From Comamonadaceae bacterium (GTDB taxonomy: Bacteria > Pseudomonadota > Gammaproteobacteria > Burkholderiales > Burkholderiaceae_C), in the NCBI GenBank assembly GCA_947453965.1, contig CANGIQ010000002.1, positions 186,001 to 250,000 on the forward strand: a DNA stretch of 64,000 bases, read 5' to 3'. The notes beneath the pieces were generated by a model. That model did no database searches. It was not told the origin of the DNA and saw only the letters and a list, made by a program, of their open reading frames with translations. Of the stretch, positions 5,605-41,854 are shown one piece after another. Within the stretch, counting starts at the first letter, position 1. Every line of letters starts with the position of its first letter. The position numbers were made by a program, and so were the translations under genes.

Positions 5605-5637
5605 GGTAATTTCCTTAAGTGTCTGAGGATGTTGTCA

Positions 5638-5656
5638 GCAAAGCCGACGATTGTAG
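5638..5656 (-). promoter_or_regulatory. rpsT promoter with GGCTTT discriminator
   Basis: On the minus strand the segment reads CTACAATCGTCGGCTTTGC. The -10 is TACAAT (5655-5650), preceded by TGC as in extended -10 promoters. The following bases GTCGGCTTT match the discriminators before rpsP and rplS. No strong -35 is visible. The TSS is inferred near 5643. Confidence 0.55.
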
Positions 5657-5721
5657 CAAATTCAAACACTCGGGGCTCACCCTGCCTAACGCGGCTGCCA
5701 AGGCCTCGCTACACTGCGGAT

Positions 5722-7287
5722 GTGTCATTGTTTAAATCTGCTTCCATCGTCTCGGGTTTCACCCTGGTTTCCCGCATCACGGGCTTGATGCGCGAACTGC
5801 TGATTGCCTCGACTTTCGGGGCCAGCGCCCTGACCGACGCCTTCAATGTGGCATTTCGTATTCCCAATTTGTTCCGCCGCCTGTTTGCCGAAGGCGCATT
5901 CAGTCAAGCCTTTGTGCCCGTGCTGGCTGCCAGCCGCCAGCAGCAGGGCGACGAGGCCACCCATCAACTCATTAACCAAGTCGCCACCTTGCTGATTTGG
6001 GCTTTGCTCTTGACCTGCGTGCTCGGGGTGCTGGGCGCGCCGCTGTTGGTGTGGGCCATGGCCAGTGGCTTGCAGCAGTCCCCGCAAGGCTTTGAGGTGG
6101 CGGTGGTGATGACGCGCTTCATGTTCCCGTACATCGCCTTCATGTCGTTGGTTGCCTTGGCGGCTGGCGTGCTCAACACCTGGAAGCGTTTTGCGGTGCC
6201 CGCTGCCACACCCGTTCTGTTGAACGTGGCCATGATTGCCGCCGCATGGTGGGGTGGCCCGTGGTTGGGCACCTTGGGTGTGCCACCGATTTATGCCCTG
6301 GCCGTGGGTGTGATGTTGGGGGGCGTGGCACAGCTCAGCGTGCAGCTGTGGGCTTTGCGCCGGTTGGGCATGCTGCCTCGCGTGGGCCTGAGCTGGCGCG
6401 CGGTGCAAGAGGCTTGGCACGGCGAAGGCCCTAAGCGCATTTTGCAGCTCATGGCGCCGGCCTTGCTGGGTGTGAGTGTGGCGCAGATCTCTTTGCTGAT
6501 CAACACACAAATTGCCTCACAGCTCACCCCAGGCAGCGTGAGCTGGCTGAGTTATGCGGACCGTTTGATGGAGTTTCCTACGGCCTTGTTAGGTGTGGCG
6601 TTGGGCGTGGTGTTGATGCCCCAGCTCTCGGCAGCGAAAGCGGCCAACGACACCGCCAAATATTCAGACATGCTGGATTGGGGCTTGCGCTTGGTGCTGC
6701 TGCTGGCGCTGCCCTGTGCTTTGGCCTTGCTGGTGTTTTCCAAAGCGTTGGTGGCGGTGCTCTACAACTACGGCGCTTTCAGCGCCCACGATGTGCAGCA
6801 AACCACCGTGGCGCTGATGGGCTACGGCGTGGGTTTGTTGGGGCTGGTGGCCATCAAGGTGCTGGCGCCTGGCTACTACGCCAGCCAAGACATTCGCACG
6901 CCGGTGCGCATTGCGGTTGCGGTGCTCGTCATCACGCAGGTGTTCAACTTGGCCTTGGTGCCTTATTTGGCCCACGCGGGGCTGGCCCTGTCGATTGGCT
7001 TGGGGGCGCTGGTCAACGCCGCATGGTTGTTGCTGGGCTTGCGTCAAAAAGGCGCCTACATCGCCAGCGCAGGCTGGGGACGCTTCGTGCTGCAAGTGTT
7101 GGCGGCCTGTGTGGTGTTGGGCGCATGGCTCTGGTGGGCCGCTCAGTATTGGGATTGGACCGCCCTGCACGCCACGCCCTGGCTGCGTGTGGGATTGATG
7201 ACGGGCGTGTTGGTGGTGAGCGCTGTGTTGTACTTTGTGAGCCTGACGGTGTTGGGTTTGAAGCTGCGTGCATTGCTGCGGCGATAA
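5722..7287 (+). CDS. murJ: Lipid II flippase MurJ (MviN family)
   Basis: A polytopic membrane protein of 521 residues when started at the GTG at 5722 (VSLFKSASIVSGFTLVSRIT). The next ATG upstream (5629) would add 31 residues unlike the family. The conserved N-terminal block SRITGLMRELLIASTFGASA and FNVAFRIPNLFRRLFAEGAF contain the charged residues lining the MurJ cavity. About 14 hydrophobic segments follow. MurJ flips lipid-linked peptidoglycan precursor across the inner membrane and is normally essential. TACACT stands six bases before the GTG with no Shine-Dalgarno sequence, suggesting a leaderless mRNA. Confidence 0.95.
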   Translation: MSLFKSASIVSGFTLVSRITGLMRELLIASTFGASALTDAFNVAFRIPNLFRRLFAEGAFSQAFVPVLAASRQQQGDEATHQLINQVATLLIWALLLTCVLGVLGAPLLVWAMASGLQQSPQGFEVAVVMTRFMFPYIAFMSLVALAAGVLNTWKRFAVPAATPVLLNVAMIAAAWWGGPWLGTLGVPPIYALAVGVMLGGVAQLSVQLWALRRLGMLPRVGLSWRAVQEAWHGEGPKRILQLMAPALLGVSVAQISLLINTQIASQLTPGSVSWLSYADRLMEFPTALLGVALGVVLMPQLSAAKAANDTAKYSDMLDWGLRLVLLLALPCALALLVFSKALVAVLYNYGAFSAHDVQQTTVALMGYGVGLLGLVAIKVLAPGYYASQDIRTPVRIAVAVLVITQVFNLALVPYLAHAGLALSIGLGALVNAAWLLLGLRQKGAYIASAGWGRFVLQVLAACVVLGAWLWWAAQYWDWTALHATPWLRVGLMTGVLVVSAVLYFVSLTVLGLKLRALLRR

Positions 7288-38609: not shown

Positions 38610-38654
38610 GAGGACCAGGGGGTTAAAAGTTGTTGCCATTGTAGTTGGGGCTAT

Positions 38655-38789
38655 TTGGCTGGCTTTTGTGCTCTTTTGCTTTTTTGCTGGGCTCGCTTGG
38701 GGGCAGGGGTATGAGCGGGTTCCTCATACTGGTCCAGAAATCGTCACCCGCTCATACCCCTTCCCCCAAGACTACGGCCTGCGTTTTTG
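38655..38789 (-). repeat. Hairpin repeat unit, inverted copy A
   Basis: Read on the minus strand: CACAAAAACGCAG, then GGCCGTAGTCT (38779-38769), then a hairpin whose arms CTTGGGGGAAGGGGTATGAG and onward (38770-38746) pair with 38720-38696 (23 of 25 positions) around a 25-base loop containing GATTTCTGGACCAGTATGA, then AGCGAGCCCAGC (38697-38686) and an A-rich tail with AGCACAAAA and AGCCAA. Copy B (38889-39034) has the same order on the plus strand. I know of no named family with this sequence. Confidence 0.8.
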
Positions 38790-38888
38790 TGGCTCCGCTG
38801 TTATGAACGCCACAAAGCTTCGTAGGTGCGGCAGTAGTTCTGGCTGTGCATGGCAATGTGCCAACGGCACGAGCATGCTGCAGGCGTG
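38786..38888. other. Spacer between the two inverted hairpin units
   Basis: About 100 bases between the copies. It holds TTTGTGGC (38786-38793) pairing with GCCACAAA (38809-38816), which slightly overlaps the end of copy A, and GTGCC-AAC-GGCAC (38859-38871 region). No credible coding frame or ribosome-binding site is seen. Confidence 0.5.
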
Positions 38889-39034
38889 CACAAATGTGGG
38901 CCGTAGTCTGGGCGTGGCTGGTGGGCGTCGCAATGATTTCTGGTACAGCATGAAGCAGCGACGCCCACCAGCCGCGCACAGCGAGCCCAGCACAAAAAGC
39001 AGCACAAAACAACACAGGAAGCACAAAAAGCCAA
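38889..39034 (+). repeat. Hairpin repeat unit, inverted copy B
   Basis: CACAAATGTG, then GGCCGTAGTCT (38899-38909), then a 20-base-pair stem (38912-38931 with 38958-38977, one G-T pair) around a 26-base loop with GATTTCTGGTACAGCATGA, then AGCGAGCCCAGC (38980-38991), AGCACAAAA (39001-39009) and AGCCAA (39029-39034). Loop and flanks match copy A in inverted orientation; the stem sequence does not, yet it is fully self-complementary. The unit ends 27 bases before the polA ATG, so the polA -10 (CACAAT, 39048-39053) is just outside it. Confidence 0.8.
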
Positions 39035-39061
39035 CAACAACCCACGGCACAATCCACAGTT

Positions 39062-41854
39062 ATGAGTGAATCCAAAACCCTGCTGCTGGTCGACGGCTCC
39101 AGCTACCTTTACCGCGCTTTTCATGCCATGCCCGACCTGCGTGCCGTGCCCGGAGACCCCAGCAGCGCGGCCACGGGGGCTATTCGCGGCATGATCAACA
39201 TGATGCAGGCCTTGCGCAAGGAAGTGCCCACCCAGCTTGCCGCGTGCGTGTTTGACGCCAAAGGCCCCACCTTCCGCGACGAGATGTACCCCGCGTACAA
39301 AGCCAACCGTTCGCCCATGCCCGACGACTTGCGTTCGCAAATTGAGCCCATCCACGCCATGGTGCGCATGCTGGGTTGGACGGTGTTGGATGTGCCAGGC
39401 GTTGAGGCCGACGATGTGATTGCCACCTTGGCCGTGACCGCTGCCAAGCAAGGCGTGACGGTGGTGGTGTCGAGTGGCGACAAGGACTTGAGCCAGTTGG
39501 TGAACGAACACATCACCATCATGGACACCATGAACGGCAAAAAGCGCGATGTGGCGGGTGTGACCGCCGAGTTTGGTGTGCCACCGCATTTGATGATCGA
39601 TTACCAAACCTTGGTCGGCGATACGGTGGACAACGTGCCTGGTGTGCAAAAAGTGGGCCCCAAGACGGCCGCCAAGTGGCTGATGGAATACGGCTCGCTC
39701 GACAACTTGCTGCAAAACGCTGATGCCATCAAAGGCGTGGCAGGAGAGAACTTGCGCCAAGCGCTGGATTGGCTGCCCACAGGTCGCCAGTTGGTGACCA
39801 TGAAAACCGATTGCGATTTGTCGGCCTATGTGCCCAACTTGCCCGCACTCGATGCGCTGCACTTGGCCGAGCCCGACAAAGCGGGCTTGAAAACCTTTTA
39901 CGAAACCTATGGCTTCAAAGGTTTGGCCCGTGCTATCAGCGAGGGCGGCGATGCACTGTCATCGGCATTACCGGGCGCTTCACCCAAACCTAAGTTCGAG
40001 CCCAATCCGGGTTTGTTTGACGAACCCGCACCTGTGGTCTCGCAAGTCAGCAACAAAGCCTACGACTGCGTGCTGACGTGGGAGGCGTTCGATCAATGGC
40101 TGGCCAAGCTACAAGCAGCTGAACTGGTGGCCTTTGACACCGAGACCACGTCGTTGGACGCCATGCGTGCCGAAATTGTGGGCTTGAGCTTTTCGGTCCA
40201 ACCCGGTGAGGCGTGTTACATCCCGTTGGCGCACAGCTATGGCGATGCGCCCACTCAGTTGCCCATCCACGAGGTGCTGGCCAAACTCAAGCCTTGGTTT
40301 GAAAACCCTGCTATTCATAAGCTGGGCCAGCACATCAAATACGACCGCCACGTGATGGCCAACCATGGCATTGAGGTCAAAGGCTACGCCCATGACACCA
40401 TGCTGCAAAGTTATGTGTTGGAAGTGCACAAGCCGCATGGCCTGGCCAGCTTGGCCGAGCGCCATGTGGGCCGCAAGGGACTGAGCTACGAAGACCTGTG
40501 CGGCAAGGGCGCACACCAAATTCCGTTCGCGCAAGTGGATGTGGCGCGTGCCACCGAGTATTCGTGCGAAGACTCGGACATGACCTTGGACGTGCACCAG
40601 GTGCTGTGGCCCCGATTGCAAGCCGACGACAAACTGCGTTTCATCTACCAACTGGAAATTGAAAGCAGCGAAGCGCTGTACCGCATCGAGCGCAACGGCG
40701 TGTTGATTGACGCGCCCACATTGGCCGCGCAAAGTCACGCCTTAGGCCAACGCATTGTCCAGCTCGAAACCGAGGCGTATGAGATTGCAGGCCAGCCGTT
40801 TAACTTGGCCAGTCCCAAGCAATTGGGCGAAATCTTCTTTGACAAACTGGGCTTGCCCGTCATCAAAAAAACCGCCACAGGCGCACGCAGCACCGATGAA
40901 GAGGTGCTGGAGAAGTTGGCGGAGGACTACCCGCTGCCTGCCAAAATTTTGGAGCACCGTTCGCTCAGCAAGCTCAAAGGTACCTACACCGACAAGCTGG
41001 CGCTGATGGCCTTGCCACGCACGGGCCGCGTGCACACGCACTACGCGCAAGCGGTGGCGGTGACGGGGCGTTTGTCGAGCAACGATCCCAATTTGCAAAA
41101 CATCCCGATTCGCACGGCGGAAGGTCGCAAAGTGCGCGAGGCGTTTGTGGCCCCTGCGGGCAGCGTGATTGCCAGCGCCGACTACAGCCAGATTGAGCTG
41201 CGCATCATGGCCCACATCAGCGGTGACGAGGCCTTGGTGAAAGCCTTTCACGATGGTTTGGATGTGCACCGTGCCACCGCAGCTGAAGTGTTTGGTGTGG
41301 CTGTGAGCGAGGTCAGCACCGAGCAACGCCGCTATGCCAAGGTGATTAACTTTGGCCTCATCTATGGCATGAGCGCCTTTGGTTTGGCCAAAGCGCTGGG
41401 CATCGACAACACGGCGGCCAAGAACTACATCACCCGCTACTTTGAACGCTTTGCAGGCGTCAAACGCTACATGGACGACACCCGCGAACAAGCCAAAGCC
41501 CAAGGCTATGTCGAGACCGTGTTTGGCCGCCGCTTGTACCTGCCCGAAATCAACAGCCCCAACGGCCCGCGCCGTGCAGGTGCAGAGCGTGCAGCGATCA
41601 ACGCACCCATGCAAGGCACTGCCGCTGATTTGATCAAGATGAGCATGGTCAAGGTACAGCAAGCGATTGATGACCAACAGCGTCAAACCAAGGTCATCAT
41701 GCAAGTACACGATGAACTGGTGTTTGAAGTGCCCGAGTCAGAAGTTGAATGGGTGCGCACCGAAGTGCCACGCCTGATGGCCGAAGTGGCGCAGCTCAAA
41801 GTGCCGTTGCTGGCTGAGGTCGGGGTGGGGCCGAACTGGGACAAGGCGCATTGA
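39062..41854 (+). CDS. polA: DNA polymerase I
   Basis: A 930-residue repair and Okazaki-processing polymerase with three domains: 5'-3' exonuclease (VFDAKGPTFRDEMYPAYKAN; GVEADDVIATLA), an intact 3'-5' proofreading domain (AFDTETTSLDAMRAEIVGLS near residue 358; YDRHVMANHG; YSCEDSDMTLDVH), and the family A polymerase core (SADYSQIELRIMAHISGDEA; motif B RRYAKVINFGLIYGMSAFGL; motif C MQVHDELVFEVPE). The start ATG at 39062 has CACAAT eight bases upstream and no Shine-Dalgarno sequence. It is divergent from thrB across the inverted hairpin units. Confidence 0.97.
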   Translation: MSESKTLLLVDGSSYLYRAFHAMPDLRAVPGDPSSAATGAIRGMINMMQALRKEVPTQLAACVFDAKGPTFRDEMYPAYKANRSPMPDDLRSQIEPIHAMVRMLGWTVLDVPGVEADDVIATLAVTAAKQGVTVVVSSGDKDLSQLVNEHITIMDTMNGKKRDVAGVTAEFGVPPHLMIDYQTLVGDTVDNVPGVQKVGPKTAAKWLMEYGSLDNLLQNADAIKGVAGENLRQALDWLPTGRQLVTMKTDCDLSAYVPNLPALDALHLAEPDKAGLKTFYETYGFKGLARAISEGGDALSSALPGASPKPKFEPNPGLFDEPAPVVSQVSNKAYDCVLTWEAFDQWLAKLQAAELVAFDTETTSLDAMRAEIVGLSFSVQPGEACYIPLAHSYGDAPTQLPIHEVLAKLKPWFENPAIHKLGQHIKYDRHVMANHGIEVKGYAHDTMLQSYVLEVHKPHGLASLAERHVGRKGLSYEDLCGKGAHQIPFAQVDVARATEYSCEDSDMTLDVHQVLWPRLQADDKLRFIYQLEIESSEALYRIERNGVLIDAPTLAAQSHALGQRIVQLETEAYEIAGQPFNLASPKQLGEIFFDKLGLPVIKKTATGARSTDEEVLEKLAEDYPLPAKILEHRSLSKLKGTYTDKLALMALPRTGRVHTHYAQAVAVTGRLSSNDPNLQNIPIRTAEGRKVREAFVAPAGSVIASADYSQIELRIMAHISGDEALVKAFHDGLDVHRATAAEVFGVAVSEVSTEQRRYAKVINFGLIYGMSAFGLAKALGIDNTAAKNYITRYFERFAGVKRYMDDTREQAKAQGYVETVFGRRLYLPEINSPNGPRRAGAERAAINAPMQGTAADLIKMSMVKVQQAIDDQQRQTKVIMQVHDELVFEVPESEVEWVRTEVPRLMAEVAQLKVPLLAEVGVGPNWDKAH

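Follow-up and report, generated by a model that had tools for sequence, protein, structure and literature searches.

A low-copy hairpin family of Comamonadaceae with REP-like features, site-specific stems and a preferred folding strand

The gap between thrB (minus strand) and polA (plus strand, start at 39062) of a Comamonadaceae bacterium holds two inverted hairpins, copies A and B, that belong to one hairpin family. The gap, which measures 422 or 452 bases depending on the thrB start, lies in a stretch of 64,000 nucleotides that was analyzed as a whole (the window; Table 1). On balance, we lean towards the view that these hairpins represent a low-copy, REP-like palindromic family of the Comamonadaceae, whose members inserted as whole hairpins and were moved as single-stranded DNA by a factor acting in trans.

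Table 1. Positions in the window of the two thrB–polA hairpins, their parts and the motifs on either side.
Feature	Position	Strand	Basis
Copy A hairpin, R1 full span (type I)	38673..38790	-	138.5 bits, G000:C2:224673-224790(-); R1 training sequence
Copy A foot GGCCGTAGTCT (GTAG tag)	38769..38779	-	pattern match
Copy A 5′ stem arm	38746..38770	-	inverted repeat I1
Copy A loop GACGATTT - CTGGACCAG - TATGAGGA, internal loop and apical hairpin	38721..38745	-	read in sequence
Copy A 3′ stem arm	38696..38720	-	inverted repeat I1
Copy A AGCGAGCCCAGC (38686-38697) and A-rich tail	38655..38697	-	sequence, pattern match
Copy B hairpin, R1 full span (type I)	38889..39003	+	R1 training sequence
Copy B foot GGCCGTAGTCT	38899..38909	+	pattern match
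Copy B 5′ stem arm	38908..38931	+	inverted repeat I2
Copy B loop AATGATTT - CTGGTACAG - CATGAAGC and one base	38932..38957	+	read in sequence
Copy B 3′ stem arm	38958..38981	+	inverted repeat I2
Copy B AGCGAGCCCAGC (38980-38991) and A-rich tail	38980..39034	+	sequence, pattern match
ATTGTAG, thrB side; putative -10-like motif on minus strand	38638..38644	+	ATTGTA in 30/30 occupied and empty gaps
GCACAAT, polA side; putative -10-like motif	39047..39053	+	kept in 30/30 gaps

An earlier note, made from the letters of the window, had described two inverted copies of one hairpin unit at this place, and we located GGCCGTAGTCT, AGCGAGCCCAGC and paired stems in both copies. By eye, the order of parts that it gave (CACAAA, foot, hairpin, AGCGAGCCCAGC, and an A-rich tail with AGCACAAAA and AGCCAA) is also the same in each. 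The stems are 96% complementary over 25 nt in copy A and 92% over 24 nt in copy B, and their RNA fold z-scores are -6.2 and -5.7, respectively, with 0 of 200 shuffles equally stable. While the stems differ between the two copies, both loops, which are 25-26 bases long, share GATTTCTGGNNCAGNATGA, a common feature absent from the earlier note that occurs twice in the window at ≤2 mismatches (shuffle mean, 0.05).

The hairpin pair sits between two promoter-like motifs, a placement based upon the retention of ATTGTA beside thrB and GCACAAT beside polA in all 30 gaps compared. A consensus promoter scan of the thrB–polA gap gave no promoter and did not pick up either motif. The pair probably spaces or insulates the control regions of both genes; no result supports a regulatory role for the hairpins at thrB–polA. 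An Rfam scan of the whole window returned no match at gathering score, and a permissive scan of the gap returned 24 matches (23 microRNA families and one snoRNA), all below their gathering scores. Two terminator-like sites were also predicted in the gap, a number that is near chance (mean 1.0), and they do not use the long stem pairing.

Two covariance models were made: R1 from copies A and B, and R2, a model of the hairpin core, from 37 chosen copies. In the host genome, R1 matched 23 times at E ≤ 10 when mirror matches are counted, with further full-length places among them (best E 3e-31). R2, with mirror matches left out, located the hairpin at 20 distinct places in the host and at 12-26 in each of five other genomes. 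The supposition that the unit belongs to a dispersed family is therefore borne out, and the suggested search with a model built on both copies found further host-genome places, so the likeness is not due to chance. The other suggested search, by exact pattern, was less informative: it gave two hits in the host's own genome, both at thrB–polA, and none in 83 other genomes of the genus. As the exact foot-plus-loop pattern hits thrB–polA only, an exact search alone would wrongly have refuted a dispersed family.

Searches over more than 40 genomes used stricter filters, under which weak matches are lost. With these filters, R1 matched 34 of 84 genomes of the genus and R2 matched 69 of 399 genomes of the family (the host being counted in each), the latter covering 38 of 141 genera. 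In a draw of 399 genomes from the order, R2 matched four, namely the host and three others, all of the host family. A scan of named genomes yielded, among the matches listed, hairpin loci titled Rhodoferax, Limnohabitans, Polaromonas, Malikia, and “Comamonadaceae bacterium”. At least 116 loci were involved, of which 38 lacked paired arms under a strict filter and 18 did so after offsets were allowed; these 18 include unrelated phyla, which are chance hits, as well as one Limnohabitans and one Comamonas locus. We rejected viral contigs as hairpin carriers, since their eight pattern hits are, by eye, chance coding matches without a stem. Plasmids and phages searched with the window gap gave no match, and plasmids searched with another hairpin copy gave only four short, weak hits.

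Three parts make up the core of the hairpin: a 21-26 bp stem, the internal loop GAYGATTT/YATGARGA, and a small hairpin at the apex. The internal loop, which is symmetric (8 by 8 bases) and lies between the main stem and the apical hairpin, is the best conserved part of the hairpin. In the middle of this loop there is a pair, C-G in 30 of the 37 aligned cores and U-A in the other seven, that could be flanked on both sides by tandem G.A mismatches. Standard pairs occupy 93.6% of the 1110 pair cells of these 37 cores, compared to 60.7% in shuffled and 37-46% in slid alignments, although the figure leans upward because the cores were picked out of 58 with paired arms. Two-sided changes were found in 325 cells of the 37 copies (shuffled mean, 90), including the change from C-G to U-A within the internal loop, and affect 25 of the 26 pairs of the main helix.

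Copies that we refer to as type I possess a GYAG-W-CT foot and an AGCGAGC-CAG tail, and the remaining copies have other flanks. Both window copies do carry the GTAG foot that had been likened to the tetranucleotide of REP elements, but it is not the general foot of the family: among 101 copies, a set without copy B and its orthologues, seven have GTAG, 37 have GCAG, and 57 have neither. Directly beyond the tail of one hairpin (L051 1501-1616 (-)) there is a short tandem repeat of AAAGGC.

The stems also reveal which strand folds. Copies entering these counts had passed a loop filter in which the stem must start directly at the loop, with at least 13 of 20 positions in Watson-Crick pairs for the strand counts and at least 16 of 22 paired for the context and identity counts; copy B and its orthologues are missing from the sets of 66, 101, and 290 copies because their stem is offset by one base. 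Read in the sense of the loop, the stems of 290 distinct copies contain 382 G.T and 19 A.C pairs. The excess was likewise seen in 84 dissimilar stems (109 vs. 8) and in 334 copies once base-offset stems of the copy B type were allowed (411 vs. 23). Since a G.T becomes an A.C in the complementary strand, it is one strand that folds, and the wobble pairs identify this strand as that reading GAYGATTT. Copies within open frames gave the same picture, whether sense (34 vs. 1, n = 23) or antisense to the containing frame (46 vs. 4 in 31 copies; 22 vs. 3 in 13 dissimilar stems); these frames, of at least 400 codons, were detected mechanically and some may not be genes. Given the same excess in antisense copies, the polarity seems to be a property of the element and not of a transcript, and because the mRNA carries the other strand in those copies, we consider single-stranded DNA more likely to be the folded form, with RNA as a serious rival.

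Folded as RNA, the loop-sense strand is the more stable of the two in 98 of the 101 copies; with DNA parameters, it is the more stable in 88 but the less stable in 11. A functional RNA would give the G.T excess equally, and a one-strand C-to-T mutation bias may be an alternative source of it. A mechanism based upon single-stranded DNA might leave an orientation relative to the replication fork. Single copies share one fork orientation in 11 of 12 cases in one genome (p = 0.006), and in seven of nine and seven of ten cases in two others; many of the sites are orthologous and the count is significant in one genome only, such that the bias is suggestive there and weak in the other two.

The stem and the apical part of the hairpin have different histories. 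In a comparison of 101 copies from nine genomes, with orthology assigned from the 3′ flank and not from the stem, identity of the 5′ arm was 0.85 over 162 orthologous pairs versus 0.48 over 692 pairs from the same genome. After insertion, each site thus passes on a stem of its own, in which both partners of a pair have changed. The apical part was compared at 16 sites common to the host and up to five relatives. At 15 of these, the host has T immediately ahead of ATGA where most relatives have C, with no case of the reverse (sign test, 6e-5), and at nine sites the host has a shorter apical hairpin than the relatives, at none a longer one. The host's own loops are not uniform (mean apical identity 0.66). 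We infer that this genome-wide change in one direction reflects coevolution with a trans-acting reader. Since the host branches off first within the hairpin clade, the apical change may be that of one branch, at dispersed sites whose stems are largely unchanged. Were exchange between copies the source of the change, it would need tracts of ~25 bases. Avoidance of a restriction site was rejected as the reason for the coordinated C/T change, as the observed/expected ratio of CATG in the window is 1.00.

In four genomes, apical loops are shared more often between the members of a pair than with other copies (host, 3/4 vs. 8/167; G029, 3/3 vs. 29/102; G001, 2/4 vs. 22/62; G002, 1/3 vs. 0/18), and higher sharing within pairs was not seen in G006, G027, G028, and G046. 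Pairing itself is common, in keeping with the BIME-like arrangement that had been proposed from the window: 14 of 26 copies in G027, 10 of 19 in G029, and 12 of 22 in G001 are in inverted pairs. One hairpin, between aroB and dgt in G027 (L095 9305-9379), has its loop inverted relative to L093, L094, and L096 while the orientation of foot and tail is kept, and looks as if the loop had been flipped inside its palindrome.

Whole hairpins have been inserted both between genes and, in frame, inside genes. Relatives that lack the insertion, which the earlier note had named as a check, are frequent at thrB–polA: among 30 loci, the best 30 of 77 genomes with a polA match, 20 have no hairpin, nine have the pair, and one (G024) has a shortened hybrid. 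The G024 gap (L170) contains a single hairpin in which copy A is fused to the end of the 3′ side of copy B, as if by deletion between the two inverted copies. In a midpoint-rooted polA–thrB tree, the nine pair-bearing genomes, the hybrid, and the empty G060 and G002 fall into one 12-member clade in which the host branches first (support 0.98). Several inner nodes are weak, and the simplest reading is one gain, one loss, and one deletion, in which the inverted pair, with its feet facing, entered thrB–polA once, in the ancestor of the 12 sampled genomes. Empty sites were also found between aroB and dgt (G028, G003, G006, G002, and G005) and, in G029, in leuS and at uvrA site 2. Snap-back copying, in which the stem would be templated from the target, was rejected because the leuS empty site of G029 has, by eye, neither arm. 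No target-site duplication was established at the hairpin insertions.

The context of 66 copies was recorded in four genomes, with orthologues counted separately and G001 represented by six stretches only. Of these, 11 are inside genes, and the rest are flanked by convergent (26), codirectional (26), or divergent (three, all at thrB–polA) genes; with 55 of 66 copies between genes, the family is a mostly intergenic dispersed palindrome, as expected of REPs. The 11 intragenic copies are all antisense to the gene and represent five sites, namely two in uvrA and one each in leuS, hrpA, and a formate dehydrogenase-like gene, and the inserts in these leuS, uvrA, hrpA, and formate dehydrogenase-like open frames are in frame. 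In LeuS, residues 377-406 hold the hairpin and have no counterpart in PDB chain 6q89. The host uvrA frame (L355) has at least 1640 codons and two hairpins, and in other genera, hairpin pairs with one copy in each sense lie within uvrA-like frames of up to 2329 codons. Such long frames in the Malikia group and other genera contain up to three in-frame hairpin pairs (L149 2842-9831 (-), L150, L151, L153-L155). In other genera, what had looked like a series of cassettes flanked by hairpins at intervals of 1.6-2 kb was rejected as such, being these hairpin pairs inside the long uvrA frame. We also set attC sites aside as a reading, because the loop is conserved in the hairpins.

With regard to how the hairpins might move, the unit would be recognized and moved as single-stranded DNA of the GAYGATTT strand, by a factor acting in trans that would recognize not the stem but the internal loop together with the apical hairpin. 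Coevolution of the apical part with the factor would give the one-direction change across the genome. A candidate for the factor is the genome's single-copy RAYT-type HuH protein. The earlier note had looked to a RAYT transposase, and the host does have a single-copy gene named REP-associated tyrosine transposase; what R2 did not confirm is a hairpin within flanks of up to 1.5 kb around the Y1 loci. Genes with PF01797 are present in 65 of 84 genomes of the genus. The host Y1 protein just passes the NCBIfam threshold for REP_Tyr_transpos (81.8, cut-off 80) and shows weak similarity to the solved TnpA-REP (E 0.0003). It contains the motifs NHLH, WE, and YIDLNP, and in length and motifs it comes closest to subclass 2.1, without being an exact fit. 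That RAYT subclass was reported without REPs (Quentin et al.; PMC6006769). It is conceivable, albeit unlikely, that subclass 2.1 RAYT-type proteins, acting in trans from an unlinked gene, have in these hairpins their missing single-stranded substrates. In that case, an enzyme that senses the internal loop and apical hairpin alone would let each stem diverge at its own site, with the loops of all copies tracking shifts in its preference together.

R2 confirmed no hairpin in flanks of up to 1.5 kb around 70 Y1-transposase loci, 50 of which are from hairpin-bearing genomes (flanks were shorter in 19 of 60 loci). In only five of these loci did R2 find a hairpin, that of aroB–dgt, 4-5 kb away, and a weak R1 match ~1 kb from the G029 Y1 gene (18.5 bits, E 0.0096) was not confirmed by R2. 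One genome (G338; 99% complete, one contig) has three hairpin matches and no Y1 gene, and of 25 chosen hairpin-bearing genomes elsewhere in the family, 23 have a Y1 domain match and two have none. Overall, the presence of hairpin and Y1 gene showed no clear association (15/16 vs. 18/24 good genomes by hand count; Fisher p = 0.21). The ends of the host RAYT-type gene (L093 4817-5614) carry a candidate terminal repeat of the GGGG type (inverted, 18 nt, 83%) that starts with ATTAATTGGGG, which is one of three inverted pairs found, taken without a chance control. Nearby, upstream of a long frame (5610-6536, minus strand) that ends beside the RAYT gene, there is an inverted repeat with a 26 bp stem and a 37-base loop (L093 6570-6658), which by sequence is outside the hairpin family.

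How do other explanations compare? The hairpins could form a structured RNA family (a 3′ end stabilizer, attenuator, or small RNA) in which an RNA-binding protein would bind the internal loop with its possible tandem G.A mismatches. The wobble excess, the covariation in the stems, the better loop-sense RNA folds, and the location of 52 of 66 copies between convergent or codirectional genes would all fit such a family, as would the position of BRE, a possible relative, in a transcribed region of Bordetella (PMC3110155). However, the excess is also present in the antisense copies, where, if the frames are genes, the mRNA is not the folded strand; the thrB–polA hairpins lie between the promoter-like motifs and not downstream of them; and no family in the window reached its Rfam gathering score. 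We therefore assign the RNA reading a small, though by no means trivial, probability. At the other extreme, a chance resemblance between unrelated inverted repeats or terminators is hardly credible. While the stemless coding matches in viral contigs are an example of chance likeness, the E-values of the model matches and the covariation refute such an origin for the hairpins, and the terminator-like sites of the gap make no use of the long stem.

Two explanations by known elements appear improbable to a similar degree. One is the reading of the earlier note, in which these are canonical REP/BIME elements moved by a resident RAYT. It is favored by the GYAG foot in 44 of 101 copies, the inverted pairs, the single-copy REP_Tyr_transpos protein with its weak TnpA-REP similarity, and the strand specificity, as published for TnpA-REP (PMC8266576); intragenic REPs in uvrA have been published as well (PMC3733652). 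It is disfavored by the lack of R2-confirmed hairpins in the flanks of the Y1 loci, by the closeness of the host protein to a subclass reported without REPs (PMC6006769), by the absence of a clear association between hairpin and Y1 gene, and by a copy number of ~20, not hundreds. The other equates the hairpins with BRE, the Beta-proteobacterial repeat element published by Hot et al. (2011), now in new hosts. BRE is 75-91 bp long in Bordetella, is usually intergenic with some copies inside genes, and was counted in 12 listed strains of Bordetella, Azoarcus, and Comamonadaceae, with 29 copies in Polaromonas sp. JS666 and four in Rhodoferax ferrireducens (PMC3110155); the present hairpin, too, occurs in loci titled Rhodoferax and Polaromonas. 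Yet BRE was collected at >70% identity and described as tandem repeats, whereas the hairpins have variable stems and inverted pairs; the main text of that report has “hairpin” zero times and “palindrom” and “stem” once each (PMC3110155); and all four matches of our hairpin in the order draw are in the host family.

The family that we favor, a REP-like one moved in trans, resembles REP/BIME elements in being made up of dispersed palindromes with inverted pairs, a foot tag in part of the copies, and one special strand, and in its gene-end and intragenic positions, uvrA included. It differs in the rarity of GTAG (7 of 101 copies), in its site-specific stems, and in that no REPtron was found; its stems are 21-26 bp long, compared to 6-13 bp in REPs (PMC3733652), and six genomes have 12-26 copies each, where REPs usually exceed 100 (PMC2817692). 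The host Y1 gene, with its candidate GGGG-type terminal repeat, is reminiscent of TIRYTs, for which some dispersed and self-complementary TIR families have been described (PMC3733652), but the repeat beside the gene is not the hairpin. Rickettsia palindromic elements are also palindromic units that lie in frame in housekeeping genes, a likeness and not a kinship, and are set apart by description, being ~150 bp long and found in Rickettsia (PMC10969869). BRE is similar to our hairpins in size, overlap of host genera, copies per genome, and some intragenic copies, and differs, by description, in being sequence-conserved and tandem, with no palindrome described in that account; it was reported as not co-oriented with the replication fork (PMC3110155). 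At the level of titles and abstract openings, with most subscription journals outside the scope, the literature offered no published candidate for the hairpin besides BRE, and under the name of BRE, PMC3110155 alone.

The hairpin thus separates, within one small element, a part inherited with its site (the stem) from a part that changes genome-wide (the apical loop), and since wobble counts reveal the folding strand, the question of DNA or RNA, and of the reader of a REP-like hairpin, becomes directly testable. Should an orphan RAYT-type class read the hairpin, a substrate would have been found for that class; subclass 2.1 is large, and accounts of it to date are without REPs (PMC6006769). In comparison with these known systems, we infer that the hairpins are a REP-like variant that folds as single-stranded DNA, which we read as new and which differs by description from BRE, the one published element with which it might be identical.
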